This document shows positions 1,416 to 14,769 of a DNA stretch of 64,000 bases, one piece after another; within the stretch, counting starts at the first letter, position 1, and every line of letters starts with the position of its first letter. A program made the translations under genes and the position numbers. The notes beneath the pieces are model-generated. The model was given only the letters and a program-made list of their open reading frames with translations, was not told where the DNA came from and searched no databases. The stretch is taken from contig CALMVZ010000026.1 of the NCBI GenBank assembly GCA_937873155.1, positions 1-64,000 on the forward strand, given 5' to 3'. The stretch comes from an uncultured Bacteroidota bacterium. Its GTDB lineage: Bacteria > Bacteroidota > Bacteroidia > B-17B0 > Aurantibacillaceae.

Positions 1416-1430
1416 GTGATCCCGCTGGGA
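1416..1430. other. attL core, duplicated 3' end of tRNA-Lys
   Basis: GTGATCCCGCTGGGA is identical to 14696-14710, where it forms the acceptor and T-arm end of tRNA-Lys. No tRNA sequence follows it on the right here; the sequence diverges at once. This is the footprint expected at the tRNA-distal end of a tRNA-targeted element. Confidence 0.85.
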
Positions 1431-1548
1431 ACGCTAGATAACTCACTGATTATTACAGCATTTTCTGGCCTTTTACCACCCACCTGCACCTCTGTCAGGT
1501 TGTTAAAACAAGGGGTAGAAATTCCTATAAATTCTAATAAAAAAATTA

Positions 1549-1567
1549 CGACTCCCTCCGCGACTCC
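1549..1567. other. Left-end paired CGACTCC repeats (putative recombinase arm sites)
   Basis: CGACTCC occurs at 1549-1555 and 1561-1567, a period of 12 bp. The same pair with the same period occurs inside the right end (14621-14639). Symmetric placement near both att cores suggests binding sites for the integrase arm-binding domain or for the excisionase. The second copy also forms part of a terminator stem. The rest of 1170-1663 holds only the att core, terminators and the dispersed repeat. Confidence 0.45.
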
Positions 1568-1590
1568 GCTCCAAAAAGCGGAGTTTTTTC
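1563..1590 (+). terminator. Rho-independent terminator ahead of integrase
   Basis: ACTCCGCT (1563-1570), loop CCAAAA, AGCGGAGT (1577-1584), then TTTTTTC. This is a perfect eight-pair stem with a T-run on the plus strand. It would shield the integrase from chromosomal read-through. Confidence 0.7.
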
Positions 1591-1663
1591 TTTTTATCGG
1601 CAAGTATGTCTTGAAAAACACGCTTGGTACAGTCTGTGTTAACCATCAAACAAATATATCGCT

Positions 1664-2986
1664 ATGATCCACTGCAATTTTAACCTTAAGAGCGTTAAAC
1701 AAAAACCCCATCTAAAAGAGCGCCCCATAAATTTAATCGCCCGCTGGCACGGCAGAAAGTTAGCATACTCAACATTGGAAAAGATCGAACCAGAACACTT
1801 CGAAACCGATCCAAGCAAAAGAAACTTTCAAAGGGCTAAACACTCTCATATTGGTTATAGCGAATTGAATCGTCGTTTGGACTATTTAGAGAATGCCAGT
1901 AAAGACGTCTTTCATTCCTTTATTAACGACAATCATCGGATTCCAGAGCCCCATGAGTTAAAGAAGATCTTTGATGTTAAGTTGAGATTTATACCTGAGC
2001 AGAAAAGATTAACTTTTTTTCAATTTGTTGACCAGTTTATTAAAGAAGCGGAGAAAAGTGGGATTTCACTTGAAAACGGAAGAAAAAAATCAAAAGGAAC
2101 AATCCGTATTTACAAAAACACACAGCGAAGATTAAAGGAATTTGAACAGTACTATGGTAGAAAGATAGAATTTGAAACCGTGGATTTGGACTTCTATGAT
2201 AAGTGGATTGAATTTTTGAGTGAAGAACTACAGTTAGCACTTAATTCCATTGGACGCTACACGAAAACTGTTCGCGTTTTTATGCAAGCCGCAACCGAAA
2301 AAAATTTGAATACAAATATGGTTTTTAAAAGCAAGCGTTTTAAAATTTTAGGCGAGTCTGTCTACAAGATTTATCTTAATGAAAAAGAACTAACAGACAT
2401 GTTCAATTTGGACTTAACAAATAATAAAAAGTTAGAGCGCGTGAGAGATCTCTATATCTGCACTTCATATACGGGTTTGCGTTATGCGGATATAGTTTCT
2501 ATAAAAAAAGAAAATATTAAAGGAGACAAATTTCAAATAAAAACAAAAAAAACAGGCGAGGTTATTATGTTACCAATTCATCCCAGAATTAAAAGTATAA
2601 TGAAAAGATACACTGACTATCCAAACTCACTGCCGCCAGGAATCTCTAATGTGAAATTTAATCGTTATATAAAGCTTGTTGGGGCGTTGATTCCGTCACT
2701 TCAAAAAACAATACAAGTTAGTATAACGCGAGGGGGGAAGGTAATTACAGAAACTATTCCAAAGTTCAAAGCCATAACCATTCATACGGCTCGAAGATCT
2801 TTCATCTCAAATTTATATTTAGAGGGGATGGACTCTCTTCAGATTTCTAAGATGACAGGCCATCGCAACTTTAAGAGCTTTATGCTTTATATTAAGGTCA
2901 CAATGGAAGAAAATGCGGAATTGTTGGAGGCACACTGGAAGAAAAAAGAACTAACTAAAACAGAACAGATAAATGAACAACAATAG
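1664..2986 (+). CDS. Tyrosine recombinase / integrase of the element
   Basis: Site-specific recombinase of the Bacteroidota phage/mobile-element type, 440 aa, the usual length. The N-terminal part (about 1-90) is an arm-binding region, 105-215 the SAM-like core-binding domain (FFQFVDQFIKEAEK), and 230-420 the catalytic domain. Catalytic residues are visible: R273 in TGLRYAD, a Lys in the KTKKTGE beta hairpin, H374 and R377 in HTARR, H400 in GHRN, and nucleophile Y409 in LYIKV. It lies next to attL and reads into the element. Its stop overlaps the start of the next gene by 14 bases, so integrase and the HTH protein are probably translated together. It is expected to recombine the 15-bp tRNA-Lys core. 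Confidence 0.93.
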   Translation: MIHCNFNLKSVKQKPHLKERPINLIARWHGRKLAYSTLEKIEPEHFETDPSKRNFQRAKHSHIGYSELNRRLDYLENASKDVFHSFINDNHRIPEPHELKKIFDVKLRFIPEQKRLTFFQFVDQFIKEAEKSGISLENGRKKSKGTIRIYKNTQRRLKEFEQYYGRKIEFETVDLDFYDKWIEFLSEELQLALNSIGRYTKTVRVFMQAATEKNLNTNMVFKSKRFKILGESVYKIYLNEKELTDMFNLDLTNNKKLERVRDLYICTSYTGLRYADIVSIKKENIKGDKFQIKTKKTGEVIMLPIHPRIKSIMKRYTDYPNSLPPGISNVKFNRYIKLVGALIPSLQKTIQVSITRGGKVITETIPKFKAITIHTARRSFISNLYLEGMDSLQISKMTGHRNFKSFMLYIKVTMEENAELLEAHWKKKELTKTEQINEQQ

Positions 2987-3284
2987 ACAAAAAATAATTC
3001 TGTTTCCGATTTCTATCGAGGAATTAGAAACCTTAATCAGAGAATGCGTCAAGTCTGAATTTCATAAAATAATCCCTCCGCCTTCCGAAAAAGAAGAGGA
3101 CATAATCATATCACGTTCCGAAGCAGCGAAGTTGTTAGGTGTAAGCTTAAGTACCCTTGCTAAATTTTGCAAAAGCGGAGTTTTGATTTCATATAGAATT
3201 GGGCGTGGTGTAAAACTCAAGAAGGCAGAAGTTCTGAGAACATTAAAAGAAGTGAAGACTATAAAGTATTCAAGGCAACATTAA
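2973..3284 (+). CDS. Excisionase-like HTH protein 1
   Basis: 103-residue protein with a MerR/excisionase-type helix-turn-helix (HTH_17 like): SRSEAAKLLGVSLSTLAKF at about residues 46-64, then a wing with GRGVKLKKAEV. It starts inside the integrase gene (14-base overlap). This is the classic arrangement for a recombination directionality factor or regulator of the integrase. The N-terminal half (ISIEELETLIRECVKSEF) is a helix typical of Bacteroidota excisionase-like proteins. It is paralogous to the gene at 4286 and shares the C-terminal ending (KYSRQH versus KHSRRRE). The excisionase role is inferred from position and fold. Confidence 0.75.
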   Translation: MNNNRQKIILFPISIEELETLIRECVKSEFHKIIPPPSEKEEDIIISRSEAAKLLGVSLSTLAKFCKSGVLISYRIGRGVKLKKAEVLRTLKEVKTIKYSRQH

Positions 3285-3289
3285 TAAAA

Positions 3290-3484
3290 GTGGAAGCACA
3301 AGAGAATGATAAGGCATTAAGAAAAGTAAAAGTATATCCAAAGTTTGTACAACGATCGAGTGGATTTATTCAGGTAGCTGAGATAAGGTTGTCGGGCAAA
3401 TGGTTGTCTTCCCATGGTTTTGAAATAGGAAAAATGGTTGAAGTGAATTGTGAGAAAAACAGAATTATATTAACCGTAAGATGA
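3290..3484 (+). CDS. SymE-like toxin family protein
   Basis: 64 residues from a GTG start. The pattern KVKVYPKFVQRSSG, then IRLSGKWLSSHGF and a short beta strand pair ending NRIILTV is the SymE family signature (AbrB-like swapped-hairpin fold). E. coli SymE is an SOS-induced toxin controlled by an antisense RNA. Here the gene follows the HTH gene by 5 bases and overlaps the next gene at ATGA, so it sits in an operon rather than alone. An antisense RNA cannot be judged from sequence reading. In a mobile element it could act as an addiction module or a nucleoid-like DNA-binding protein. Confidence 0.65.
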   Translation: MEAQENDKALRKVKVYPKFVQRSSGFIQVAEIRLSGKWLSSHGFEIGKMVEVNCEKNRIILTVR

Positions 3485-4074
3485 CAGACCAATATGATAG
3501 TATAAGAATAAGTTTGGTTGGAGTTGGTTACATGATTCAAAAAAGCAAAGTGAACGAAGCTTTACTTGCTCGAATGTTTTCAGTTGCGGCCAAACTTAAA
3601 TCTTCGCTTAATGACGCACTTCTCGATGCTGAGTTTTTTCCTATGCTAGGTGTTCCCGAATTAAAGTCCATCTCCGATTTAGAAATCGAATATAGTTACT
3701 TTGGGCTTTTGGATGATCCGCGAAGCCGAATTGAGATTTGGAAAAATGGCAAAAGAAAAACCATACTCAAGCTGATGCAACTTTATAATAAAGAGTTACT
3801 TTTTCCTTTATATGATTTAAAACTAGAAGAAGTAAGTGCTTTAGCCATCAAAGAGTTTGAGATGATCGTAACAGAACTAAGTATAGGGACTGTTTTGGAT
3901 GTTACAGTTCGTATTCCTAATTTTTCGATTGATAATCTACAGTTTAAGATTTGCGAGGTAAGAGGTTTAGGAAATCAGAAATTGCTTTTCGATGTCCTAT
4001 ATGAAGAAAAGACATTATTCGTCAGAATTCCTGAAACACTCATAACAAATTTTAGTGTGTACTTCAAAGCATAG
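3481..4074 (+). CDS. Unknown protein translationally coupled to SymE-like gene
   Basis: 197 residues; not recognised. The ATG at 3481 overlaps the stop of the SymE-like gene (ATGA), so the two are co-translated. The first half is predicted helical (KVNEALLARMFSVAAKLKSSLNDALLDAEFF). The second half alternates beta strands ending FVRIPETLITNFSVYFKA. There is no signal peptide, membrane segment or clear catalytic motif. Position suggests an accessory or antitoxin partner of the SymE-like protein, or an element maintenance protein. This is inference from neighbourhood only. Confidence 0.6.
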   Translation: MTDQYDSIRISLVGVGYMIQKSKVNEALLARMFSVAAKLKSSLNDALLDAEFFPMLGVPELKSISDLEIEYSYFGLLDDPRSRIEIWKNGKRKTILKLMQLYNKELLFPLYDLKLEEVSALAIKEFEMIVTELSIGTVLDVTVRIPNFSIDNLQFKICEVRGLGNQKLLFDVLYEEKTLFVRIPETLITNFSVYFKA

Positions 4075-4130
4075 CGCCAGAATGGCGCACATAAAAATAT
4101 TTAACAATATTTTTATGTTAAATATTTTTT
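4074..4130 (+). terminator. Terminator after the integrase operon
   Basis: Two hairpins follow the stop of the 197-aa gene: GCGCCA/TGGCGC (4074-4079 and 4083-4088), then a perfect 13-pair AT-rich stem (4093-4105 with 4117-4129) ending in a T-run. They separate the integrase-SymE operon from the next transcription unit. Confidence 0.65.
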
Positions 4131-4238
4131 CTAAAAAAAATTCAAAAAGTTCGTAAGGGATTTGCTAGCATAGGTAAAATTCCTGAACGGGAACCGTACG
4201 AGAGTTAGCTAAAAGTATAGTTCAGTTCAGATTTTAAC

Positions 4239-4258
4239 ACAAACATGTACATGTTTGT
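4239..4258. promoter_or_regulatory. 20-bp perfect palindrome, putative operator
   Basis: ACAAACATGT followed directly by its reverse complement ACATGTTTGT. It lies 27 bases before the ATG of the second HTH gene, where a dimeric regulator could bind. It may be the target of that HTH protein or of the one at 2973. Confidence 0.5.
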
Positions 4259-4285
4259 TATTTCTTTTTGCATTTGATTTGCGAC

Positions 4286-4621
4286 ATGATTGTAAAAGTC
4301 ACAGATAAGCAAGTCACGATAACGATTACTCTAAATGGATTGCAGGAGGTAGTAGAACAATGCGTTTTCAGAGCAATGCGATCCGAAGCTATCGAAATTC
4401 CCAAAGAGGAGAAAGAATTTATCAAACGTGTAGAGGCTGCAAAGCTATTGAGAATATCATTGCCTACTCTCACCAAATTTTCCAAAACTAAAGAACAAGG
4501 AGGGCTTGGTTTGTTAACTGCACATCACTTAGGTAATGGAACGATCAGGTATTGTAAACAGGAAATTCTAAAAGCGCTTTCAGAAATCGACAAAACAAAA
4601 CATTCGAGAAGAAGAGAATAA
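4286..4621 (+). CDS. Excisionase-like HTH protein 2
   Basis: 111 residues from ATG at 4286; a TTG 18 bases upstream would add six residues but is less likely. The HTH_17-like helix-turn-helix is KRVEAAKLLRISLPTLTKF, at about residues 49-67, followed by a longer wing than in its paralogue at 2973 (insertion KTKEQGGLGLLTAHH). It heads a second transcription unit that runs into the 218-aa protein and the DUF3987-type ATPase. In Bacteroidota elements such proteins often regulate the replication or excision genes that follow. A palindrome just upstream may be its operator. Confidence 0.7.
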   Translation: MIVKVTDKQVTITITLNGLQEVVEQCVFRAMRSEAIEIPKEEKEFIKRVEAAKLLRISLPTLTKFSKTKEQGGLGLLTAHHLGNGTIRYCKQEILKALSEIDKTKHSRRRE

Positions 4622-4647
4622 AATTATAACCAATAAAAAACCAAAAC

Positions 4648-5304
4648 ATGAAAACAAACAATGAAGAAAAGTTAGAAAGTACAGGCGCAGAAACGCCAAT
4701 CTTAAGCATGAAAACAGCAATGTTGTACGGCACAAGAGCCGCTGGAAATCCACACAAGTTCTTGAACGATCCCGTCACGAACGACCCCGATCCCTATCTT
4801 ATTTTATTAGAACATTTGCCAAGCGTAGTCTTACCATACAGCTATTACTGCTATAAGAATTGGATCGACCAGAACAAGGCATACATTAAGCACTACGACA
4901 AAGAGAATGCCAAGATAAAACCTTGTAGCTCTTATGATTCTGCGGCGAGAGCAATTGATAGCTTGGGTATACGCGCTTCCGAGATCATTAAGCTTATGGA
5001 AGAACAGCAGCAACCCATTTTCTGTATTGATGAAGCTACTGTTATTCAAACATGCCTTTTGATTCATGCAAGGACGGTCACAATTCTAACAAACAAATAC
5101 TGGAGAGAACTACCATCAGGAGCCCAACTCAGAATGAATGCGGATTATCATTTCGAAGAGTTATGTGCAAGTTTGAAAATACCAAGACGAACTCGTGCTA
5201 TAATACAACGGAAGACGGCGCTCAAACAAATGGAGATCGAAAAATTAAATGCCTCTTTTACTAACCAAGATAAAATTTCGGAAAATGATAACGAGTCTGT
5301 ATAA
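4648..5304 (+). CDS. Unknown protein preceding the DUF3987-type ATPase
   Basis: 218 residues; not recognised. No signal peptide or membrane helix. Residues 45-110 are rich in Tyr, Lys and Asn (YSYYCYKNWIDQNKAYIKHY). The C-terminal third is basic and helical (IPRRTRAIIQRKTALKQMEIEKL). It overlaps the start of the following DUF3987-type gene by about 20 bases, so the two are translationally coupled. This favours a role with that ATPase in replication or maintenance of the excised element. No catalytic motif could be identified. Confidence 0.65.
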   Translation: MKTNNEEKLESTGAETPILSMKTAMLYGTRAAGNPHKFLNDPVTNDPDPYLILLEHLPSVVLPYSYYCYKNWIDQNKAYIKHYDKENAKIKPCSSYDSAARAIDSLGIRASEIIKLMEEQQQPIFCIDEATVIQTCLLIHARTVTILTNKYWRELPSGAQLRMNADYHFEELCASLKIPRRTRAIIQRKTALKQMEIEKLNASFTNQDKISENDNESV

Positions 5305-6616
5305 AAAAGAAGAGGCGGATGATATACCCTTTCCAAGTGAAGTTTTTCCACAGGCCGTGCGAAGTATTGGTGCTATCATGGCAGAGTCACTAAACTGCAA
5401 CGATCATTTTGTTTTCGCAAGCATGTTAGTGACTACTTCGATAGGAATTGGGAGCCGACATAAAATCAAAATCAAGGAGGGCTGGCTTGAAGGGCCAGTC
5501 CTTTATATGGTTATTGTAGGAAATCCAGGAACGCGAAAAACACCCGCCATAATAAAAGCGTTAAGTCCCGTTCTCGATAAACAGAAAAGTTATGCCGTAA
5601 AACCTAGTGAAGAAAACTCTCAGGAAAACAAGAAAGAAGAACCTAAAACTATTCTTACGACCGACGCAACACTTGAATCGCTTGCAGAACTACTTTCTAA
5701 AAATCCACATGGAATAGTTCTTTACATGGACGAGTTGATGGCTTTATTGAAAGGCTTTAATCAGTATAAAAGTGGAGGCAATGACCAAGAGAAATTTCTT
5801 TCGTTTTGGTCGCAAACCGTTTGTGTAATCACACGAAAGAAAAAAGCCAATATCCAAATCAACAATCCATTTGTTACTCTTATTGGTGGAATTCAAGAAG
5901 AAATACTTGTATCTCTTTCAGATATGAAAGGAAATGGTTTTGTTGATCGCTTATTGTTTGTTTATCCAAAACCCGTTCGCTCAAAGCACACAAACGTTGA
6001 GATTCCAAAAAAGCTAATGGATGATTACGCAAGAATGTTTAATGAGATTTTTGACGTTGCTGGCGTTATAGGTGTAGAAGAACGCGTTTGGCCATTCTCT
6101 ATCGAAGCACAAGAGTTATGGAACAGTTGGCACACGGACTACTGTGAGGCAATGAATGCAGACGATCTTCCTTACTACATTAAAGGTACACTTACCAAAT
6201 TGGAAGCATACACCGCGCGTTTCGCTCTCATTCTTGCTTTTTTACACTTCGGAGAAGGTTCAGGCGAACTTATAGAAGAAATTGGTAAGGAAAGGTTGGA
6301 AGGAGCAATAAAACTCACAGAATACTTTAAGTCTCAAGCCATGAAAGTTTATTCTTCTTTCGTCTCCAGTTCTCAGGAAAGGCAAATTGAAAAAACAATC
6401 GCGTGGTTTATGAAACAGCCAGAAGGGAAGGCTCCAATCCGCAGAGTCTATACGAACAAGGTTGGTGGTGTGAAGAATTTTTCAGAAGCCTATGATCTGC
6501 TTTGCGAGATGCGTAGCCGCGCATTAGGAAAGCTAATAGAAGTGAGTGAGAACGGAAAACAGTCTTATCAGTTCGTCCTCAATCCAACGCTTCTTAAAAA
6601 AACACCAAATAACTGA
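5285..6616 (+). CDS. DUF3987-type AAA ATPase (replication protein-like)
   Basis: 443 residues from ATG 5285; an in-frame ATG at 5249 would add 12. The fold matches the DUF3987/YfjI family of primase-helicase-like proteins found in mobile elements: PFPSEVFPQAVRSI near the start, Walker A GNPGTRKT (G79-T86), Walker B VLYMDEL (D149, E150), then NPFVTLIGGIQEE and a C-terminal winged-helix-like tail. Family members often carry an N-terminal primase domain; none is visible here, so any priming function must come from elsewhere. Probably helps replicate or maintain the excised circular element. Followed within 4 bases by the small RNase H1 N-terminal domain gene. Confidence 0.75.
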   Translation: MITSLYKKEEADDIPFPSEVFPQAVRSIGAIMAESLNCNDHFVFASMLVTTSIGIGSRHKIKIKEGWLEGPVLYMVIVGNPGTRKTPAIIKALSPVLDKQKSYAVKPSEENSQENKKEEPKTILTTDATLESLAELLSKNPHGIVLYMDELMALLKGFNQYKSGGNDQEKFLSFWSQTVCVITRKKKANIQINNPFVTLIGGIQEEILVSLSDMKGNGFVDRLLFVYPKPVRSKHTNVEIPKKLMDDYARMFNEIFDVAGVIGVEERVWPFSIEAQELWNSWHTDYCEAMNADDLPYYIKGTLTKLEAYTARFALILAFLHFGEGSGELIEEIGKERLEGAIKLTEYFKSQAMKVYSSFVSSSQERQIEKTIAWFMKQPEGKAPIRRVYTNKVGGVKNFSEAYDLLCEMRSRALGKLIEVSENGKQSYQFVLNPTLLKKTPNN

Positions 6617-6620
6617 AGTG

Positions 6621-6836
6621 ATGAAAAAACGTAGATATACTTACTATGTAGTTTGGCAAGGATTTCAAACTGGAGTTTTTGCGGACTCTCTCGATTTCTT
6701 TCTCGCTACCAAAGGTTACCACGCCGCAAAGTTCAAAGGATTCAACTCTATGATCGAAGCCGAAAAAGCGTACAGCATGGGGTATAGGGTATACTTCGAG
6801 CATACCCAAAACCTTCTGCGGTTTGTCGGCCCCTGA
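6621..6836 (+). CDS. Stand-alone viroplasmin / RNase H1 N-terminal domain protein A
   Basis: 71 residues from ATG 6621, four bases after the ATPase stop. The pattern YYVVWQGFQTGVFADS, then KFKGFNSMIEAEKAY is the caulimovirus viroplasmin / RNase H1 N-terminal (hybrid-binding) domain. In known RNase H1 proteins this domain binds RNA-DNA hybrids and precedes the nuclease. Here it stands alone, without the DEDD catalytic domain. The stop is followed at once by the GC-rich foldable block, and a second protein of this family lies beyond that block. A role in R-loop or primer handling during element replication is inference. Confidence 0.72.
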   Translation: MKKRRYTYYVVWQGFQTGVFADSLDFFLATKGYHAAKFKGFNSMIEAEKAYSMGYRVYFEHTQNLLRFVGP

Positions 6837-7029
6837 TTCAGCGTTCAGCACAGGGAGGTCCGATGGCACAGAGCTTTGCAAGAAGCACCCCAGAGGAACG
6901 CACGAACAGTTCGGCAGTAGTTCGGCAACCCCCAACCTACGCTGACACAAAGCTGGGTACTCCCTGTGTTCCTCTGGGGCCTGCTGTGTCCGGACTTGCA
7001 GCAGGTTTGCACGGGCGCTGAGTGCTGAG
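6837..7029 (+). ncRNA. GC-rich foldable non-coding block (candidate RNA, oriT or origin)
   Basis: About 190 bases clearly richer in GC than the AT-rich element, with no ORF. Closing stem: 6837-6851 with 7015-7029 (14 of 15 positions pair, counting G-U). Perfect nine-pair stem: 6849-6857 (CACAGGGAG) with 6960-6968. Perfect 12-pair stem: 6888-6899 (CCCCAGAGGAAC) with 6968-6979. These last two interlock as a pseudoknot. A perfect seven-pair hairpin lies at 6980-6986 with 6999-7005. AGTTCGGCA is directly repeated at 6908 and 6919. It lies between two hybrid-binding-domain genes. It could be a structured RNA, a transfer origin or a replication origin; which one is open. Confidence 0.5.
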
Positions 7030-7083
7030 TTGCGTTTTGAAAAGGTCTTTTAATAAAGTTGTTTAACTAAAAATTTAATAAAA

Positions 7084-7383
7084 ATGGAAATCAAAAGTTT
7101 TAATTCGATTGAAGCAATCAATAATAAGTTTTACGTTGTAAAAAAGGGAAGAGAGGTTGGAATCTATGCTACTTGGGAAGAGGCCAAAATCCAAACCGAC
7201 GGTTATCCTAACAACAGTCACTGTATAGTAGAAGGAAAGAGTCACGCGCTTGGAACTTTAAAAGAAGCCTTGGAGTTAAGATCTATAATAGAAGAACTTT
7301 CCGATCAAGAACTTGAAGTTTTAGATTTTTGTGTAAAACACTATAAAAAGGAAGACGATCTAAAGTTCCCATCTATTTTTTAA
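7084..7383 (+). CDS. Stand-alone viroplasmin / RNase H1 N-terminal domain protein B
   Basis: 99 residues. Residues 15-65 show the hybrid-binding domain pattern KFYVVKKGREVGIYATWEEA, then a Gly-Tyr-Pro turn and GTLKEALEL. A C-terminal helical extension follows (IIEELSDQELEVLDFCVKHYKK). No RNase H catalytic domain is present. It is diverged from the protein at 6621, so it is a second family member rather than a recent duplication. The upstream 50 bases are AT-rich after the foldable block, and a strong terminator follows at 7397. The gene could be expressed on its own or together with the structured block. Confidence 0.72.
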   Translation: MEIKSFNSIEAINNKFYVVKKGREVGIYATWEEAKIQTDGYPNNSHCIVEGKSHALGTLKEALELRSIIEELSDQELEVLDFCVKHYKKEDDLKFPSIF

Positions 7384-7396
7384 TATAGAATAGAGT

Positions 7397-7423
7397 AAAG
7401 GTAGGGAAAACCCTACCTTTTTT
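7397..7423 (+). terminator. Rho-independent terminator
   Basis: AAAGGTAGGG, loop AAAA, CCCTACCTTT, then TTT. This is a perfect ten-pair stem 14 bases after the stop codon. It isolates the maintenance module from the cargo operon. Confidence 0.85.
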
Positions 7424-7606
7424 GTTTATCTTTTCAGCACTCAGCATTTTTTCTCAATATCCTTGTGCTCTTCATAGAGATCATTTTGTTTTTTTCGACC
7501 CAATTCGGCGAACACTCAGCATAAAGGTTGCTTATACGGTAGGTTTTCAAATTTATAAGCTGATTTTCCAAAGAAACCCGATTATTTGGTTAAATTAGCA
7601 TTACTA

Positions 7607-8704
7607 ATGACTAGGAAGAATAAGAGCATTAATGCGGGGGTTCATACAGGAACTGGTATTGATTTCCAGAAGTATTGTGCTATTTATGTTTTATTAGATA
7701 ACTATCATAGCATTAAAGCAAAGCAATATTTCATTATTCTTGAACATCATGACGATCTTGTATTTGGTTATTTAACCCCAACTGGAAAGTTGGAATTAAT
7801 TGAGGCTTATCAGGCGAAAAAATCATCAAGTGAATGGGGCATTTCTAAATTGTATGAAATACTTAAGAAGATTGTTTGCAATGGTAATTCGTTAAGAGTT
7901 GACACAATACAAAAGGAGGAAAACTATAGTCACAATTTGCATTTTATAACTAACAATACTATTTCTCTTAAAGTTGTTAAAACTTTAAAACCAAAAAGGG
8001 AAGAGATAACTTGCTATATTAATGAAGAAGATCACACTGTTGGGTATCCTTCATTAGATGACATAATTAAAACTGATATTGAGACTAAACTTAAATCACT
8101 TTTAGATTCTGGAGAATTAGCGTTTCTTAAAGAATTAGATCATGTTTCCTTAAGGTATGTTGATTTAGCAAAAACAAGTAAGTCCCAACATCAACAGTTA
8201 GTAGGAATGTTTGGTGATGTCTTTGGTAAATCTGTTCATGATCATAAAGCTGCAATTGATCTGCTTTTGAAAGCATTTAAAGATAGTGAAAGTACTTTTA
8301 ACCAAGGAGGAGCGGCACGATTAGATGATTCCACGAAAAGAGTGGAAAGTGCAAAGATTAATGAAATTCTTAATGTCATAACAAGTAAAACCAAGGCTTA
8401 TGATTTATGGCGAAAGAAAGATGAAGGCATTTCTGACAAACTTGGGTTGAGTCTTGCGGATCAAAGTAATTTTAAAATTCACTTTGAAAATAGTTTTGAT
8501 GAATTCAAAGACCTTACCCAAACTGAACATCAAAAAATACTTTCTTTTGTTAATGCCAACGTTAATGAATTGAACAATTTTATTAAAGATGAAGATTGTA
8601 TTAAGCATATATATGACAAGTTTAAATCTTCACACAATAGTCAGCTTTCCGAGCTTCAAATAAAAGCAGCAATATTCGCAGCGTATATAGAAATAAAAGG
8701 ATAA
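7607..8704 (+). CDS. Cap4/DUF4297-like nuclease effector
   Basis: 365 residues from ATG 7607; the TTG at 7586 is less likely. The N-terminus matches the DUF4297/Cap4 PD-(D/E)XK nuclease fold: GTGIDFQKYCAIYVLL (residues 15-30), then E46-H-H-D-D50 at the end of a strand and Q69-A-K71 (QAKK) in the next, the variant active site seen in this family. Such domains cut double-stranded DNA in CBASS Cap4 and in Lamassu LmuA. The C-terminal 200 residues are helical and not recognised; they may contact the ATPase. First gene of the cargo operon, 2 bases from the Rad50-like gene. Probable effector that degrades DNA on infection. Confidence 0.65.
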   Translation: MTRKNKSINAGVHTGTGIDFQKYCAIYVLLDNYHSIKAKQYFIILEHHDDLVFGYLTPTGKLELIEAYQAKKSSSEWGISKLYEILKKIVCNGNSLRVDTIQKEENYSHNLHFITNNTISLKVVKTLKPKREEITCYINEEDHTVGYPSLDDIIKTDIETKLKSLLDSGELAFLKELDHVSLRYVDLAKTSKSQHQQLVGMFGDVFGKSVHDHKAAIDLLLKAFKDSESTFNQGGAARLDDSTKRVESAKINEILNVITSKTKAYDLWRKKDEGISDKLGLSLADQSNFKIHFENSFDEFKDLTQTEHQKILSFVNANVNELNNFIKDEDCIKHIYDKFKSSHNSQLSELQIKAAIFAAYIEIKG

Positions 8705-8706
8705 AA

Positions 8707-10440
8707 ATGAAATCAACTTTATATTATAATCAGTTTTTCGCTTATTCAGAGAATGGAAACAAATATTTTTATTCAAAATTTGAAGATGGATTTAACGTAA
8801 TCCATGGTCGAAACACATCTGGTAAGAGCACGTTGATTCAAGCTATTTTGTTTACTATGGGCATAAATGATGAGAAGCAAAAGCTAAGTTCGTTATTGTC
8901 TGAAGAAGTTATTTTCCGATTAGACACCACTCTAAAAATTGGTAATGCATCAAAAAAAATAATTTTTATCAGGGAAGATGAAATAATGACCATCAAAGCG
9001 GGCGATGAGCCCATTAGAAAGTTTAATGGAATCGGCGCAAATAATTCTGTTGAACATACAAAGTTGAAGGAGTACTTACATGGTTTGTTTGGATTTACCT
9101 TAAATCTTGAAAGCAAATCAGGCTATGGCCCAGCTCCGATAGAAACCATGTTTTTGCCTTATTATGTTTCCCAATCTGTTGGTTGGGTATATTTACGTAA
9201 ATCCTTTAGCAGTTTAGATTTCTATAAACACTTTAAGGAGGATTTTCTGGATTACTATTTGGGAATAGACAATTTTGTAGATCGTAAGAAAAAACAAGAG
9301 TTGGAAAAAGCATTGAAAGAAAAGCAAGATCAAATTAGTTTTTTCACTAAGCTCGAAAAAACCAATGATGACTTCCAAGTTGCAAAAATCTCGGATGAGA
9401 ACTTTACTCAACAATCAGTAACTTATATAAACGCTCATAAAGACAAACAGGATAAAGTAATCAAAAACGAGAAAGACTATGTTCTAAAATGCAATGAACT
9501 GAGTTATTTTACTCATAGGCTTGCAGTGCTTTCTAAAGTATCTAAAAACACAAAAGATCAAAATCCAGATAACGGAAATTGCCCCACCTGTTCTCAAAAT
9601 CTTCCTTCTTCGATAATGGCAACTTATAAATTTCTTCAGGAAGAAAATGATACTGAAAAAGAGAAAAAATATTGTAAGGAACAGATAAAAAAGCTACAGT
9701 CTTCGATTAACGCTTTGCAGTCTTCAATATCCGAAGATAAAGAAGCCATAGGCCAAGAATATAAGGTACTACAAAAATACACACAACAAGAAGTAACTTT
9801 CGATACATGGTTGAAGAATAAAGCAAATGTTAAACTTGTAGAAAATGTTACTGAACAGCTAGGTGAACTTACACGTGGAATCGAAAAGGATAAAAAAGAT
9901 TTAGAGGCATTTAAAACAGACGAGGATATTAAAAAAGAGCAAGCAATAAAATCCAAACTTTTTAAGGATATTTTTCTTGAATATACAAACGAATTAGTTT
10001 TAGTTAACCCGCTTGAGGAAAGACGATTCACGGAACTTTATGAAATCTCAAGTTTTCCAAGTCAGGGGGTTGAACTTCTAAAAACAGTGATGGCCTACCA
10101 TATTGCATTCAATAAGGTAATAGCAGATACGTCAAATATTCATCGTTTTCCTTTTATGTTAGATGCTATTTTAAAAGAGGATATTGACAAAGTGGAGCGA
10201 GGGAAAATATTGAAGTTTGTTTATAAACATCGCCCAACCGATACTCAACTTATAGTTTCCATTGCAGAGTTCAAGGATGAAGATAAGATTATAGAGTCTT
10301 ACAATAAAGATTATTTTGACTCAAAAGCTCATTTGATATGCATAGGGGACGGCACACAGCAAAGAGCATTCTTGCGAGAGTATAAGGAAGAGCATGAAGA
10401 ACTTTTGAAAGAAACACTTGAATTAAAAAACGAAGTATAA
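8707..10440 (+). CDS. Rad50/SMC-like ABC ATPase with CPTC hook
   Basis: 577 residues. Walker A is GRNTSGKST (G34-T42). Long Lys/Glu-rich coiled coils run at about 190-265 and 305-430, with a Rad50-type hook motif C292-P-T-C295 (followed by SQNLPSS) at the apex. The C-terminal lobe has the strand FPFMLDAI with D486 as likely Walker B. It is short for Rad50 but normal for the ABC ATPase of Lamassu or ABC-three-component conflict systems, which sense DNA ends or replication structures and license a nuclease. Spacing of 2 bases on each side puts it in one operon with the nuclease and the HEPN protein. The exact system type cannot be fixed by reading. Confidence 0.75.
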   Translation: MKSTLYYNQFFAYSENGNKYFYSKFEDGFNVIHGRNTSGKSTLIQAILFTMGINDEKQKLSSLLSEEVIFRLDTTLKIGNASKKIIFIREDEIMTIKAGDEPIRKFNGIGANNSVEHTKLKEYLHGLFGFTLNLESKSGYGPAPIETMFLPYYVSQSVGWVYLRKSFSSLDFYKHFKEDFLDYYLGIDNFVDRKKKQELEKALKEKQDQISFFTKLEKTNDDFQVAKISDENFTQQSVTYINAHKDKQDKVIKNEKDYVLKCNELSYFTHRLAVLSKVSKNTKDQNPDNGNCPTCSQNLPSSIMATYKFLQEENDTEKEKKYCKEQIKKLQSSINALQSSISEDKEAIGQEYKVLQKYTQQEVTFDTWLKNKANVKLVENVTEQLGELTRGIEKDKKDLEAFKTDEDIKKEQAIKSKLFKDIFLEYTNELVLVNPLEERRFTELYEISSFPSQGVELLKTVMAYHIAFNKVIADTSNIHRFPFMLDAILKEDIDKVERGKILKFVYKHRPTDTQLIVSIAEFKDEDKIIESYNKDYFDSKAHLICIGDGTQQRAFLREYKEEHEELLKETLELKNEV

Positions 10441-10442
10441 AA

Positions 10443-11153
10443 ATGCTAAAGCTATTAAAGGATAGAATTCAGGCACTCAACTCGGTTGGGCAGGATGCTT
10501 TTGAAGGATCGGATTTCACATTTGGTTTTGAGACTTGGAGAGGCGGAACAATCACTTTACTTAAAGAGATAGTTCCCAATCACAAAGATCTTATCGCTCA
10601 AATTGAAAATATTAAGCTTTATCGAGTAGACATGGATCGCATAGATGCTTTAGCCTATAATCTTGAAGCCTGTAAAAAACAAGCAAAGGAGATTCTGCAA
10701 ACCTATGTTGATGTAAAGGAGCAAATCGAACAAAGTAAACTCGATACCCCATTTTGGGGTTTGTTACATCCGAAAGTTCAAGAACTTGCAAGACCACGAT
10801 TTGAAAGTGGGTTTTACGCTGATTCAATTGTTCAATGTCTCCGCGAAGCTAATAGTATAATAAAGAAGTACGTCAAAACAAAAACAGGGGAAGAATTAGA
10901 CGGAGCCTCCCTAATGACAAAAGCTTTTTCCGTAAATAATCCAATTATACCGCTTGCTGATTTGTCAAATGAAAATGGTCGTAATATTCAACTTGGTTAC
11001 ATGAAGTTGTTTGAAGGGGCAATGATTGGTATAAGAAATCCGAAATCACACGAGAATATGACCCCGAATGAAAGAACAACGATCCATCTTTTGTTTAACG
11101 CCAGTTTTATTTTTGTAAAGCTAGAGGAAACTGGAGTTATAAAAAGTAAGTGA
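10443..11153 (+). CDS. TIGR02391/Hypoth_Ymh HEPN-type protein
   Basis: 236 residues. The C-terminal half matches the TIGR02391 (Hypoth_Ymh) pattern: LHPKVQELARPRFESGFYADSI, then DGASLMTKAF and GAMIGIRNPKSHE. It includes R198-N-x3-H203, the HEPN RNase motif. The N-terminal half (about 1-100) is helical and unrecognised, ending in a helix that could pair with the ATPase. HEPN proteins in defence loci cleave RNA or act as toxin partners. Here it is the third gene, 2 bases after the Rad50-like gene and 4 bases before the GHKL gene. It may be a second effector or the middle component of an ABC-three-component system. Confidence 0.7.
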   Translation: MLKLLKDRIQALNSVGQDAFEGSDFTFGFETWRGGTITLLKEIVPNHKDLIAQIENIKLYRVDMDRIDALAYNLEACKKQAKEILQTYVDVKEQIEQSKLDTPFWGLLHPKVQELARPRFESGFYADSIVQCLREANSIIKKYVKTKTGEELDGASLMTKAFSVNNPIIPLADLSNENGRNIQLGYMKLFEGAMIGIRNPKSHENMTPNERTTIHLLFNASFIFVKLEETGVIKSK

Positions 11154-11157
11154 GTAA

Positions 11158-12189
11158 ATGAAAAAGCTTACAAACGATAGTAAGAGGCATTTAGAAGCCT
11201 CCGCAAAAAAACAACTTCAGAACAGGGTTAAGAGGAAAAACAAAACCTACCATACTAAACCTGCCTCTAAACCAAGGTCTACTGGAATTCCTGTTGCAAC
11301 AAGGCAGCAAATTTTTTTCGAAGAGCTCAGGGCCCCCGTAAAATTCAATTTACAATATGAAAATTGCGATGAAGTTGTAAGCTATCTTGCAAGAATCAAA
11401 CAGATGGGTAATAACGGTAGGAATCTTAATATTAGAATGGACGACATTGACGAAATCGGCGAGGGGGCTATTGCAATGCTGTTGTCCGTAATGGACGAGC
11501 TTTCTAAACAGAATGTTCTTATAAAAGGAGCAAAGCCCAAGGATCCAGACGTAAAAGATGTTTTGGAGAGATCAGGTTTTTTTAAATATATGAGTGGATC
11601 AGTTGATGAGAAAAACAAAAATTCGAAGAACACGATTTTGAGAACTGGTGGCGTCAATGACTCTGTCATTAATTTACCTGAGGAAATTAGAAAAGCCAAC
11701 GACACCGTTTGGGGGTCGACAGGCCGCAATCCACCCATGCGCGGAAGCGTTTATGAGATGATGAGAAATAGTTGTGATCACGCATTTAAAGATGTCGATA
11801 ATATTATTTGGCATTTGGCCATTAGTCATGACGATTCAAATAACTTAGTAAAATTCTCTTTTGTGGATAACGGTAAAGGTATTATTCGTTCTTTTAGAAA
11901 TGGAATTCTCAAGGCAGTAAAACATCTTTTTACGGACAACGTGGATATTTTGAATACCGCTTTTCGAAACGGTATAGAATCAAGAACAGGTTTAAGTTGG
12001 AGGGGGAAAGGGTTACCCACTATTTTTGAAAACTACCAAGATGGGTATTTTAAGAATTTAGTTGTAATTTCGAATGATGTTTTTATCGACTTCGATAGAA
12101 GTCTAAGCAAGAAGTTAAGTGTTCCTTTCTCAGGAACTTATTATTTTTGGGTATTGAATAAGGATTGCGTAAAGGCATGTTATACATAA
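11158..12189 (+). CDS. STAS-like plus GHKL ATPase fusion protein
   Basis: 343 residues. The basic N-terminal tail (1-45) is followed at about 55-150 by a STAS-like fold (LNIRMDDIDEIGEGAIAML, then a helix and KDVLERSGFF). A GHKL ATPase then spans about 180-330: N box E200-MMR-N204 with DHA, G1 box VDNGKGI (D237, G239, G241), G2 box WRGKGLP (G283, G285). There is no His-phosphoacceptor domain, so it resembles anti-sigma/partner-switch kinases (SpoIIAB, RsbW) more than sensor kinases. It couples to the HEPN gene by a 4-base gap. The following DUF4325 protein is a STAS-like fold and could be its substrate. Substrate and signal are unknown. Confidence 0.72.
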   Translation: MKKLTNDSKRHLEASAKKQLQNRVKRKNKTYHTKPASKPRSTGIPVATRQQIFFEELRAPVKFNLQYENCDEVVSYLARIKQMGNNGRNLNIRMDDIDEIGEGAIAMLLSVMDELSKQNVLIKGAKPKDPDVKDVLERSGFFKYMSGSVDEKNKNSKNTILRTGGVNDSVINLPEEIRKANDTVWGSTGRNPPMRGSVYEMMRNSCDHAFKDVDNIIWHLAISHDDSNNLVKFSFVDNGKGIIRSFRNGILKAVKHLFTDNVDILNTAFRNGIESRTGLSWRGKGLPTIFENYQDGYFKNLVVISNDVFIDFDRSLSKKLSVPFSGTYYFWVLNKDCVKACYT

Positions 12190-12190
12190 A

Positions 12191-12238
12191 AAGGCATAAA
12201 CTATGTAACTAATATGCCTTAATGACAGACTATCTTTG
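12191..12238 (+). promoter_or_regulatory. Hairpin and internal -7 promoter box
   Basis: AAGGCATA/TATGCCTT (12191-12198 and 12213-12220) forms a perfect eight-pair hairpin without a T-run. It is followed by TATCTTTG (12231-12238), a match to the Bacteroidota -7 box TAnnTTTG, 37 bases before the DUF4325 start. No clear -33 TTTG is seen at the right distance. The hairpin may slow read-through or set transcript ratios while the box gives the last two genes their own promoter. Confidence 0.45.
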
Positions 12239-12275
12239 AGGGGCATGACTATTGATATAATAAATTAAACAGAAA

Positions 12276-12596
12276 ATGAAGGAAATTAATATAGCTGTAG
12301 AATTTACAACTGAGCCTGGAGCTCGTAATTATAGTGACGGGCCTTTTTCGGGTGAGGAATTTTTTGATAAACTTTTGAAGCCAAGATATGAGGAAGCGAA
12401 GAAGGAAGCCGTAAAGCTTAAGGTAATTCTCGATGGCACAGAAGGTTTTGCAAGTTCTTTTTTGAATGAGGCTTTCATAAGATTGGGTAATGAATTTGGC
12501 GCGGAAGAAGTTTGGGGGAATCTTATTCTGGTTTCTGAGGAAATGCCTAAATATATCCAAAAAGTGAAAGAATCTGTGTATGAAAAAAGGGTATAG
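12276..12596 (+). CDS. DUF4325 STAS-like protein
   Basis: 106 residues matching DUF4325 (PF14213, STAS-like): PGARNYSDGPFSGEEFFDKLL (residues about 14-34), then KLKVILDGTEGFASSFLNEAF and a C-terminal helix. STAS-like proteins in partner-switch systems are phosphorylated on Ser/Thr by GHKL kinases; the SS of FASSFL is a candidate site, by analogy only. It lies directly after a STAS+GHKL gene and overlaps the membrane-protein gene by 17 bases. GHKL-DUF4325 neighbours are common in bacterial accessory islands, but I know of no assigned role. Confidence 0.8.
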   Translation: MKEINIAVEFTTEPGARNYSDGPFSGEEFFDKLLKPRYEEAKKEAVKLKVILDGTEGFASSFLNEAFIRLGNEFGAEEVWGNLILVSEEMPKYIQKVKESVYEKRV

Positions 12597-13134
12597 TTGG
12601 TTACTCTACATAATTTGTTTTATCCTTGGAGCTTTAGTTTCCTACTTATTAACTCAATGGAAATTTCTTGAAATAGATCCAAAGATCAATGTCTCTACAA
12701 CTCTTATTGCCTTAATGACCGCTGTGATTGGCCTTTTCATTGCAACAACTTTAAAGAGGAATCAGAATAAATCATCAAACCTCCATAATTATTTGTTTCC
12801 AAAACTTAATGCCACTTGGGAAAAATTCATCGCGTTTTCTCATACTCTTGATTTGAATGATAAAATTAAAGTCAGTGATTTAGCAAAACACATTAAAGAG
12901 TTGAACCAAGGAACCATGTCACTTAAGCAAATGTTTTCATCCTTTGGATTAAACAATAGTAGCATTGATTCACTCGAAAAGGATTTTGAAAAGCTGGAGT
13001 CCCTAATGTCAACCTGTACAATTACAAAAAATGTGATTAAATACAGCTTGAAAAAAACTGAGCTGGGTAAGGTTGTTGAATCCACTAACAGTCACTTTGT
13101 AACAGCGTTAAAAGAGATCAATAAACTATCCTAA
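12580..13134 (+). CDS. Two-helix membrane protein of the GHKL/DUF4325 module
   Basis: 184 residues. TM1 is about 6-27 (LLYIICFILGALVSYLL) and TM2 about 39-58 (LIALMTAVIGLFIATTL). A charged, helical cytoplasmic region follows (60-184) with little resemblance to known enzymes. It overlaps the DUF4325 gene by 17 bases, so it is translationally coupled. In defence systems small two-helix proteins often act as membrane-perturbing effectors. Here the partner-switch pair upstream could control it. The effector role is inference; it could instead be the sensor. Confidence 0.65.
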   Translation: MKKGYSWLLYIICFILGALVSYLLTQWKFLEIDPKINVSTTLIALMTAVIGLFIATTLKRNQNKSSNLHNYLFPKLNATWEKFIAFSHTLDLNDKIKVSDLAKHIKELNQGTMSLKQMFSSFGLNNSSIDSLEKDFEKLESLMSTCTITKNVIKYSLKKTELGKVVESTNSHFVTALKEINKLS

Positions 13135-13135
13135 A

Positions 13136-13357
13136 TTAGAACAAATCTTTTACTGAAACTCCAAGCGCATTAGCGATTTTATGTAAAGTTAGACTAGTTA
13201 CATTGGCCCCCTTCGTCAAACGTACAACATTAGCTTTTTCCATCTCAGCTCTAAATGCGAGTTCGCCGAAAGATAATTTTTTCTCCTTTCTAATCTTGTC
13301 AACCTTTTGACCAAGCGCCTTTAGAAATCTGTCTTTTTCGGATTTAGTCATACTCAA
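13136..13357 (-). CDS. Xre-family transcriptional regulator
   Basis: 73-residue Cro/CI-type helix-turn-helix protein: KVDKIRKEKKLSFGELAFRA and then NVVRLTKGANVTSLTLHKIA, ending GVSVKDLF. It is the size of a minimal Xre DNA-binding domain. It is convergent with the defence-like operon, its stop lying 1 base from the end of the membrane-protein gene. Its promoter region contains an 11-bp inverted repeat and a second 7-bp one, probable operators for autoregulation. It could repress the downstream secreted-protein gene or, acting in trans, the cargo operon. Confidence 0.85.
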   Translation of the reverse strand: MSMTKSEKDRFLKALGQKVDKIRKEKKLSFGELAFRAEMEKANVVRLTKGANVTSLTLHKIANALGVSVKDLF

Positions 13358-13420
13358 AATACCCTCTTTTCTATTGGAAAATCGGTAGCTTATATGACAC
13401 CGATTAGAAATTTTGAGTAT
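13350..13420. promoter_or_regulatory. Inverted repeats at the Xre promoter (putative operators)
   Basis: ATACTCAAAAT (13350-13360) and ATTTTGAGTAT (13410-13420) are perfect inverted copies. Nested inside are AATCGGT (13380-13386) and ACCGATT (13399-13405). The left copy overlaps the Xre start codon. Symmetric sites upstream of an Xre gene are typical operators. Confidence 0.55.
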
Positions 13421-13450
13421 ATTTGATTGTTAAGGTTCTGAGTATTCTAA

Positions 13451-13492
13451 TATGACAAGGAGTCGTATGACGTCATACGACTCCTTGTCATA
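13451..13492. repeat. 42-bp perfect palindrome
   Basis: The 21 bases 13451-13471 (TATGACAAGG... ending TATGAC) are followed with no spacer by their exact reverse complement. The arms contain the CGACTCC motif found in pairs at both ends of the element. As a cruciform or dimer-of-dimers site it could serve the Xre protein, the integrase or an origin/transfer function. It lies 94 bp beyond the Xre start codon and 138 bp before the secreted-protein gene. Confidence 0.8.
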
Positions 13493-13629
13493 GCGAATTT
13501 AAAATTGATTTGATTTGTAAATCATCTGGATGCGAAATCAGAGCCTGGACTGATTTGTGAGGGAGTCAGAATATAACTTGTGATAGTACAAGAAAACTAG
13601 TGTACAGTCTAATATCAAATATAACCAAC

Positions 13630-14445
13630 ATGAAAACAACAAAAACACAAACAATCTTTTCCATGCTCTTGTTATGCGTTTGTTCTTATTCGCAAACAAG
13701 CACCGAAGAAAAAGAAAGCGAAGCACTGAGATCTAAACTCAAGGTGAAGTCGATAACCTTAATGCAAAGCGAATATGGTTATGTAAAAGGTGAGTGGGTA
13801 GCAAAATCAGCAAATAAAGTCGCAAAAACAATTTACAACAAGAAAGGAGGTGATATAGAGGAAATTTCCTATACACAGAGAGGTACGATAGAGAATTGGG
13901 CAGTTTACGAATATGACAGCAAGGGAAACTACTCAAAGATGACTTTCAAAAAATCAGACGGTACTACCGCATTTGTTGCAAAACACAGAAACGTTTATGA
14001 CAGCATTGGAAGATTAAAGGAGATTTTCATCTACCAAAAGGACACAGTTCCTGCGAACAAGATCGATTACTCATATGATTCTAAGGGCAACATGTATAAG
14101 TTCAGAAAATATAAGCCCGTATACTCATTTAAAGGCGCGTCTGACGAGAATGGAACTTACGAAGGTAAATTCTCCTTGATCGAGTCACAGGGCTATAAAT
14201 TCGACGATAAGGGCCGAACGATTCAAACAACATTCTATGCCGACGACTTTTTGAATGTTGACGATGGTTACACAGGGAAAATTGACTTTAAGTATGATGC
14301 GAAAGGGAAACTGGCTGAAAAAATTGGCGACTACCGATATGTGTACAAGTATGGTGCAAATGGCTTGGAGACTGAATACACAGCTTACGATAACAAGGAT
14401 CGGCCAGTAGTCACAGTAAAGTATGTTTATGAATTTAATCAGTAA
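13630..14445 (+). CDS. Secreted YD-repeat-like protein (last cargo gene)
   Basis: 271 residues from ATG 13630; the upstream GTG at 13600 is not preferred because the ATG gives a clean signal peptide (MLLLCVCSYSQ). The mature part repeats short motifs of the YDSKGN / YDSIGRLKE / FDDKGRTIQ / YDAKGKLAE type, the loose YD-repeat beta hairpins of RHS-like proteins, here in a small solenoid. No toxin domain follows. It is the outermost gene before attR and seems unrelated to the defence-like genes. It might be a surface or entry-exclusion protein; this is only a guess from its location. Confidence 0.75.
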   Translation: MKTTKTQTIFSMLLLCVCSYSQTSTEEKESEALRSKLKVKSITLMQSEYGYVKGEWVAKSANKVAKTIYNKKGGDIEEISYTQRGTIENWAVYEYDSKGNYSKMTFKKSDGTTAFVAKHRNVYDSIGRLKEIFIYQKDTVPANKIDYSYDSKGNMYKFRKYKPVYSFKGASDENGTYEGKFSLIESQGYKFDDKGRTIQTTFYADDFLNVDDGYTGKIDFKYDAKGKLAEKIGDYRYVYKYGANGLETEYTAYDNKDRPVVTVKYVYEFNQ

Positions 14446-14620
14446 AAAGCCAACTGTACGTAAAACAAAGCCCTTAGGCAAACTATTCGTTTGTGTGGAA
14501 GTTGCACTCAAAAAAATAAGAAAAGTGCTAAATACAAGTGCAGAAATCAAAAAGAGCCAATGTTTTTTGGGTAGAGATTGTTTAGTGCAAACTGGATTAT
14601 ATAGTCCGCATTGTACTAAC

Positions 14621-14639
14621 CGACTCCTAAGCCGACTCC
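14621..14639. other. Right-end paired CGACTCC repeats (putative recombinase arm sites)
   Basis: CGACTCC occurs at 14621-14627 and 14633-14639, a 12-bp period, mirroring the pair inside the left end. The stretch 14446-14620 holds no gene I can support. Confidence 0.45.
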
Positions 14640-14645
14640 TTGAAA

Positions 14646-14679
14646 CTAAAAACCCTCGGAGATTGTTGTCTTCCGAGGG
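14646..14679 (-). terminator. Terminator supplied by the element to tRNA-Lys
   Basis: CCCTCGGA (14653-14660) and TCCGAGGG (14672-14679) form a perfect eight-pair stem. On the minus strand it is followed by TTTTTAGTTT. It lies about 18 bases past the tRNA-Lys 3' end, replacing the ancestral terminator now stranded at 1371-1402. Confidence 0.8.
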
Positions 14680-14695
14680 CTTTGGCGCTCTTGTT

Positions 14696-14710
14696 GTGAT
14701 CCCGCTGGGA
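14696..14710. other. attR core within tRNA-Lys
   Basis: GTGATCCCGCTGGGA, identical to 1416-1430. It covers the 3' acceptor strand and T-arm end of the tRNA, so integration leaves the tRNA intact. Confidence 0.85.
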
Positions 14711-14769
14711 TTCGAACCCAGGACCCTTACATTAAAAGTGTAATGCTCTACCAGCTGAGCTACGGAATC
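14697..14769 (-). tRNA. tRNA-Lys (anticodon TTT)
   Basis: 73-nt cloverleaf. Acceptor GATTCCG pairs with CGGGATC (one T-G), discriminator A, CCA not encoded. The anticodon loop CTTTTAA gives TTT. T-arm CTGGG TTCGAAT CCCAG. It is the integration target of the element. Confidence 0.96.

Follow-up and report, generated by a model that had tools for sequence, protein, structure and literature searches.

In SaPIs and PICIs, the phage-inducible islands of staphylococci and Gram-negative bacteria, the origin of replication is formed by iterons located directly 3' of the gene for the helicase-initiator (PMC6092414, PMC7581432). The rep-ori module, a helicase-initiator gene followed by two sets of short iterons, is carried by a small, site-specifically integrated island, and the iterons are read by the C-terminal domain of the initiator (PMC7581432). 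The putative origin of SCCmec cch2 has the same order, with a helicase gene of the Primase_Cterm/D5 type followed by repeats that are bound by the C-terminal domain of its product, here just three 5-nt iterons (PMC7581432). For the DUF3987 ATPase domain, an earlier study predicted the role of a replicative helicase in mobile elements, and the domain is found in the integrated PrimPol-PV1 primase elements, often in tRNA genes; the primases of that study are fused to the domain, and its passages on them describe no origins (PMC5862659). NBU-type integrative mobilizable elements of Bacteroides show the order integrase, HTH protein, DUF3987 (in plasmid-borne copies), and DUF6371 and a relaxase are also present in them. 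A 2017 review described it as unexplored how mobilizable elements are maintained once excised (PMC5704250). In the literature searched, mostly outside the subscription journals, neither a described origin of the DUF3987 helicase family nor DUF3987 in combination with iterons was found.

The locus discussed here lies in an uncultured Bacteroidota bacterium (GCA_937873155.1). The window, i.e. the whole stretch of DNA that was analysed, comprises 64,000 nt (contig CALMVZ010000026.1, positions 1-64,000, forward strand). A GC-rich non-coding block within it is probably part of an iteron-type replication origin of an integrative element and tied to the upstream DUF3987 gene. Similar to SaPIs and PICIs, a helicase gene on a small, site-specifically integrated island is followed by sets of short repeats, with opposed sets at 6837-6927 and 7016-7029 and a further set at 7433-7521, and a C-terminal winged helix is predicted for the DUF3987 protein where the known initiator has its iteron-reading domain. 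In contrast to these islands, the helicase is of the DUF3987 and not the SaPI Rep type, the host belongs to the Bacteroidota, a Cauli_VI gene separates the helicase gene from the repeats, and the interior between the repeats is GC-rich while the middle of the PICI origin is AT-rich. Packaging (terS), capsid, capsid-interference and primase genes were not recognised in the main ORFs of the element with Pfam, PHROGs and NCBIfam. The DUF3987 protein stands alone, unlike that of the PrimPol-PV1 elements, and the element has neither the DUF6371 gene nor the relaxase of the NBU kind.

The integrative element and its genes

The computed boundaries of the element are two direct repeats (Table 1), the right copy of which lies at the 3' end of a tRNA-Lys gene (14696-14769, - strand). 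Between them lie genes for an integrase, an excisionase, a SymE-like protein, DUF3987, two Cauli_VI proteins, the Lamassu proteins LmuA and LmuB, and other cargo; no relaxase was found among the scanned ORFs. The ORF at 2973-3284 has a weak HTH-type profile match as a terminase small subunit, but an excisionase explains it better.

Table 1. Features of the integrative element and of the repeat region behind its DUF3987 gene
Feature	Coordinates	Strand	Remarks
Integrative element, 13.3 kb	1416-14710		15-bp direct repeat GTGATCCCGCTGGGA at 1416-1430 and 14696-14710
Tyrosine integrase	1664-2986	+	Pfam Phage_integrase 6.3e-11; PHROG 1
Excisionase-family HTH protein	2973-3284	+	TIGR01764 1.9e-9; HTH_17
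DUF3987 helicase, candidate initiator	5249-6616	+	Pfam DUF3987 4.7e-52; PHROG 2373 DNA helicase 1e-39; model, structure comparison
Cauli_VI protein 1, 71 aa	6621-6836	+	Pfam; position kept in sister elements L036, L037, L040
GC-rich block	6837-7029		putative iteron sub-array A: opposed heptamers enclosing GC-rich imperfect inverted repeat
Putative iteron pair TTCAGCG TTCAGCA	6837-6850	+	7 bp apart
Inner inverted repeat CCCCAGAGGAACGCA / TGTGTTCCTCTGGGG	6888-6979		arms 6888-6902 and 6965-6979
Putative iteron pair TTCGGCA N4 TTCGGCA	6910-6927	+	11 bp apart
Putative inverted iteron pair CGCTGAG TGCTGAG	7016-7029	-	7 bp apart
AT-rich tract, 80% AT	7031-7110		adjoins block; candidate melting region; also leader of next gene
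Cauli_VI protein 2, 99 aa	7084-7383	+	between putative iteron sub-arrays A and B
Intrinsic terminator-like hairpin	7397-7425	+	10-bp stem, T run
Putative iteron sub-array B	7433-7521	+	heptamers at 7433, 7440, 7504, 7515
Cargo: Lamassu LmuA and LmuB	7604-10440	+	PADLOC LmuA 1.2e-131, LmuB 8e-233

Several features outside the repeat region were noted as well. The SymE-toxin-like small ORF (3290-3484; Pfam SymE_toxin 5.3e-9) is found near the integrase gene. The cargo behind Lamassu (10443-13134) encodes a Hypoth_Ymh protein with weak HEPN-type PADLOC matches, a STAS/ATPase-like protein, DUF4325 and one membrane-like protein, and is possibly a further defence or sensing operon. A perfect, spacerless 42-bp palindrome (TATGACAAGGAGTCGTATGAC/GTCATACGACTCCTTGTCATA, 13451-13492) between a Cro/C1-type gene (13136-13357, - strand) and the right end of the element forms, on either strand, a much stronger fold than its shuffles, and a perfect 14-bp inverted repeat (AAAAATATTTAACA / TGTTAAATATTTTT, 4093-4129) behind the ORF at 3481-4074 folds strongly for its composition. 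Just outside the element, positions 1-460 of the window hold about 30 copies of a 15-bp tandem repeat (TTTATCTGCTGCCGC) which looks coding on the - strand.

Repeats in the GC-rich block

The block abuts the stop codon of the first Cauli_VI ORF and ends 54 nt upstream of the second. All the pieces named in the preliminary description, which was made from the sequence alone, agree with the computed features: the block is non-coding and GC-rich (59% GC compared with about 37% in its surroundings), and it contains the 15-position outer stem (6837-6851/7015-7029, with 11 Watson-Crick and 3 G-T pairs), the seven-pair hairpin CCTGCTG/CAGCAGG (6980-6986/6999-7005) and the tandem direct repeats (AGTTCGGCA at 6908 and 6919). 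The assignment of both flanking small proteins to the viroplasmin/RNase H1 N-terminal family is likewise borne out by Pfam Cauli_VI matches, covering positions 2-43 of 44 in protein 1 (6.1e-10) and 1-31 of 44 in protein 2 (2.1e-11).

A single heptamer, YTCRGCR, present in opposed orientation, makes up both the outer stem and the direct repeats. The stem is the pairing of the opposed heptamer pairs at 6837-6850 and 7016-7029, while the direct repeats represent the variant TTCGGCA. Ten of the 47 YTCRGCR sites in the window fall in 6837-7521, where 0.5 would be expected per 700 bp. The heptamers are spaced 7-66-11 in sub-array A and 7-64-11 in sub-array B, a similarity that random sets reach in 1e-4 of draws. 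The pentamer TCAGC/GCTGA occurs nine times in the non-coding slot and was matched in none of 1000 shuffles when the maximum over all 5-mers was taken; the slot for this test (6837-7083 plus 7384-7604) was picked as a whole after looking at the sequence. Counts of TTCAGCA with one mismatch in the slot are not unique within the window. The first repeat is located 221 nt past the DUF3987 stop, with the 71-aa gene in between; the interior of the block (6851-7015) is GC-rich, and the AT-rich tract sits between the two sub-arrays.

The sequence of the block itself has no copy or homologue in its own genome, in 87 genomes of the family, in plasmids or in phages. An 18-mer match in the viral contig L104, an unrelated phage, is due to chance, and almost every viral contig carrying TCAGCRYTCAGCRNNTTCAGC is GC-rich, coding-like and unrelated. 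A MITE or dispersed repeat was rejected because the motif (TCAGCRYTCAGC) has only five sites genome-wide, three of them in this region, and integrase arm-type sites are unlikely because the block is 5.4 kb away from attL.

Sister elements

Homologous elements with the integrase, the HTH protein, DUF3987 and Cauli_VI are present in three other Bacteroidota genomes (L036/L039, L040 and L037/L041), each with different cargo. Their DUF3987 proteins are 47% (L036 and L040) and 35% identical to that of the window. In L036 and L040, the slot behind Cauli_VI is filled by an array of about 600 nt made of three units of about 215 nt, whose identity is about 65-69% inside one element and 85% across the two. 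TTCAGCA and its complement abound in these units, the forward copies preceding the inverse ones. They cannot be aligned with the slot of the window, yet the motif is common to both. The slot of L037 contains another heptamer, GCAGGGT, in tandem and in opposed orientation. The case for an origin in the window is built on a shared motif, position, spacing and orientation and not on whole-sequence similarity.

Folding of the block

A transcript of the DUF3987 and Cauli_VI genes with a folded intercistronic RNA, or a small RNA processed from it, could also account for the block, with the Cauli_VI proteins as its binding partners. The block has the lowest fold energy of any 200-nt stretch in the element, and the RNA fold of its + strand (-88.9 kcal/mol, z -2.6, equalled by 3 of 200 shuffles) is stronger than that of the - strand (z -1.0). 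The Cauli_VI genes on both sides are co-directional and the second is followed by the terminator-like hairpin. By z, however, the block ranks only about tenth among 584 scanned stretches, and with DNA folding parameters both strands are equal in energy. The six units of L036 and L040 fold little or no better than shuffles on the + strand (mean z about -0.55) and slightly better on the - strand. A search of the whole window with Rfam 15 at gathering thresholds returned two tRNAs only. Changes on both sides were seen in 2 of the 29 consensus pairs of these six units, which are sister-element units and not homologues of the block, and the covariation term was unfavourable. The structured RNA of the preliminary description is therefore weakened, lacking an Rfam match and a + strand fold that is kept in the sister units, and we regard it as unlikely.

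Of the pseudoknot in the same description, the parts are real but not the whole. The nine-pair set (6849-6857/6960-6968) and the 12-pair set (6888-6899/6968-6979) are both perfect and interlock, but as both use position 6968, they form either a pseudoknot or mutually exclusive pairings. In the minimum-energy fold, the outer stem and a 15-nt inner stem (93% complementary) are formed but the nine-pair set is not, so that the pseudoknot itself is not supported. The perfect 12-bp inverted repeat was equalled in 2 of 400 shuffles; an iteron origin does not require a role for this strong inner inverted repeat.

Repeat clusters behind DUF3987 genes

Repeats behind DUF3987 genes are not restricted to the window. 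In Bacteroidota and related groups, exact 6-mers were counted in a fixed stretch of 450 nt downstream of the gene and a cluster was called at p<=0.01 by shuffling. Such clusters follow 12 of 36 distinct DUF3987 loci, compared with 4 of 90 general controls and with 4 of 113 matched controls whose gap was 150 nt or more (Fisher p 7e-6, which is only a guide since the DUF3987 loci were not corrected for relatedness). No cluster was found within 450 nt at the other 24 loci, among which are distant copies, copies in phages and copies on Bacteroides plasmids. The degenerate repeats of the window themselves do not score with exact 6-mers in the fixed stretch (3 copies, 176 of 200 shuffles). One positive among the controls comes from a phage contig of IMG/VR (L043), where the region of a - strand ORF with its end at 11783 has 11 copies of GTGACA in 450 nt.

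The clusters mostly begin 2-35 nt past the stop codon and are opposed in orientation, and their sequence varies by element (GGCGGA, TCGCCA, GTCACA, TGCCA, TGGCA, GGACCA, GTGCCA, AAGTGC). L101 and L102 have the framework of this region in common, but practically all of their iterons differ together, with GGACCA in one and GTGCCA in the other, as would be expected for sites that are read by one protein. The gene that follows the repeats is of the primase type in L085, L088 and L093 (PriCT_1, or BT4734 with PriCT_2) and encodes DUF6371 with a zinc ribbon in L095 and L101, with L102 and L080 assigned to the DUF6371 group by sequence likeness.

This arrangement bears on an origin of transfer, which the preliminary description had also proposed. 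Inverted repeats are common at oriTs, and the block has them. In an element of the iOriT type, they would be the nicking site for the relaxase of a conjugative helper; as iOriT elements exist (PMC11389934), a relaxase gene in the element itself would not be needed. Bacteroides DUF3987 elements of similar gene order do have MobC/relaxase or MobV genes further downstream. In these plasmid-borne relatives, however, the mob genes lie beyond DUF6371, whereas the repeat clusters of DUF3987 loci precede DUF6371 or primase-type genes and do not adjoin mob genes. Together with the lack of a relaxase among the scanned ORFs and of a similar site in the genome itself, in plasmids or in phages, this leaves an oriT with little probability.

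An operator array, in which the repeats bind an HTH protein of the element and control the downstream genes, is about equally improbable. The element does encode HTH proteins of the excisionase and Cro/C1 types, and the repeats flank the start region of the second Cauli_VI gene and precede the cargo, but the clusters are found directly past the DUF3987 stop whichever gene follows (primase-type, DUF6371 or Cauli_VI), and the array extends over about 600 nt in the sister elements. Least probable are functionless recombination relics of cargo exchange: the slot does border the common core and the differing cargo in the window, L036, L037 and L040, but both the spacing and the orientation of the repeats are kept, inside single elements and from one element to another, the iterons change together in L101 and L102, and in many loci a replication-type gene and not cargo follows.

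The DUF3987 and Cauli_VI proteins

An origin of the iteron type would need a protein to read it. The AlphaFold2 model of the DUF3987 protein is of poor overall quality (mean pLDDT 58.6) but fair at residues 380-450 (about 80). A structure comparison, which does not exclude families absent from its result, places residues 31-369 with MCM helicases (Z about 9) and residues 374-455 with DNA-binding proteins of the winged-helix type (Z up to 10); with Foldseek, no match fell below 0.001. The protein thus models as an MCM-like AAA+ core with a C-terminal winged helix, and it likely belongs with the iteron-reading proteins of SaPIs and SCCmec (PMC7581432).

Of the two Cauli_VI proteins, protein 1 has a diverged domain, protein 2 can be aligned with RNase H1 structures for no more than about 30 residues, and searches with both proteins as queries gave no close relatives. 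As the domain is incomplete in protein 2, hybrid binding is a candidate role at most. The origin producing an RNA-DNA hybrid of the preliminary description survives in part: an origin is the best-supported reading, as a DNA iteron origin, whereas the argument for a hybrid comes solely from the Cauli_VI domain. A contribution of these proteins to handling RNA primers or hybrids is a guess.

A model for replication of the excised element

If the block is part of an origin, the element would excise from tRNA-Lys as a circle, and its opposed YTCRGCR iterons in 6837-7029 and 7433-7521 would be the binding sites of the DUF3987 protein, the predicted MCM-like helicase with its winged helix at the C-terminus. 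This protein would then melt the adjacent DNA, perhaps the AT-rich tract at 7031-7110 and with help from the inverted repeat, and load as a helicase to copy the circle. The boundaries and genes of the element, the repeat clusters with their enrichment behind DUF3987 genes and the helicase-like model were all obtained by computation, and binding, melting and replication are inferred. Several observations speak against an origin: the GC-rich interior between the opposed pairs, the lack of a recognised primase gene in the element, the strong inner inverted repeat for which an iteron origin has no need, the degeneracy of the window's own repeats, the 24 DUF3987 loci with no cluster and the poor overall quality of the protein model.

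A broader and rather doubtful proposal is that DUF3987 proteins form a widespread family of MCM-like initiators that load themselves and read the origins of integrative elements, every member having its own opposed iteron array directly behind its gene. The element of the window would then be a derived form in which the Cauli_VI hybrid-binding proteins and the GC-rich hairpin replace the usual primase-type gene, leading to RNA-primed or hybrid-assisted initiation.

Cryptic integrative elements carry many defence genes, and their replication after excision is mostly unexplained. If the origin reading is true, the helicase-iteron module would be a defined replicon for this class of elements, and origins would become predictable from sequence. 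The rep-ori layout, which has been called unique to PICIs (PMC6092414), would then also occur with another helicase family in the Bacteroidota.
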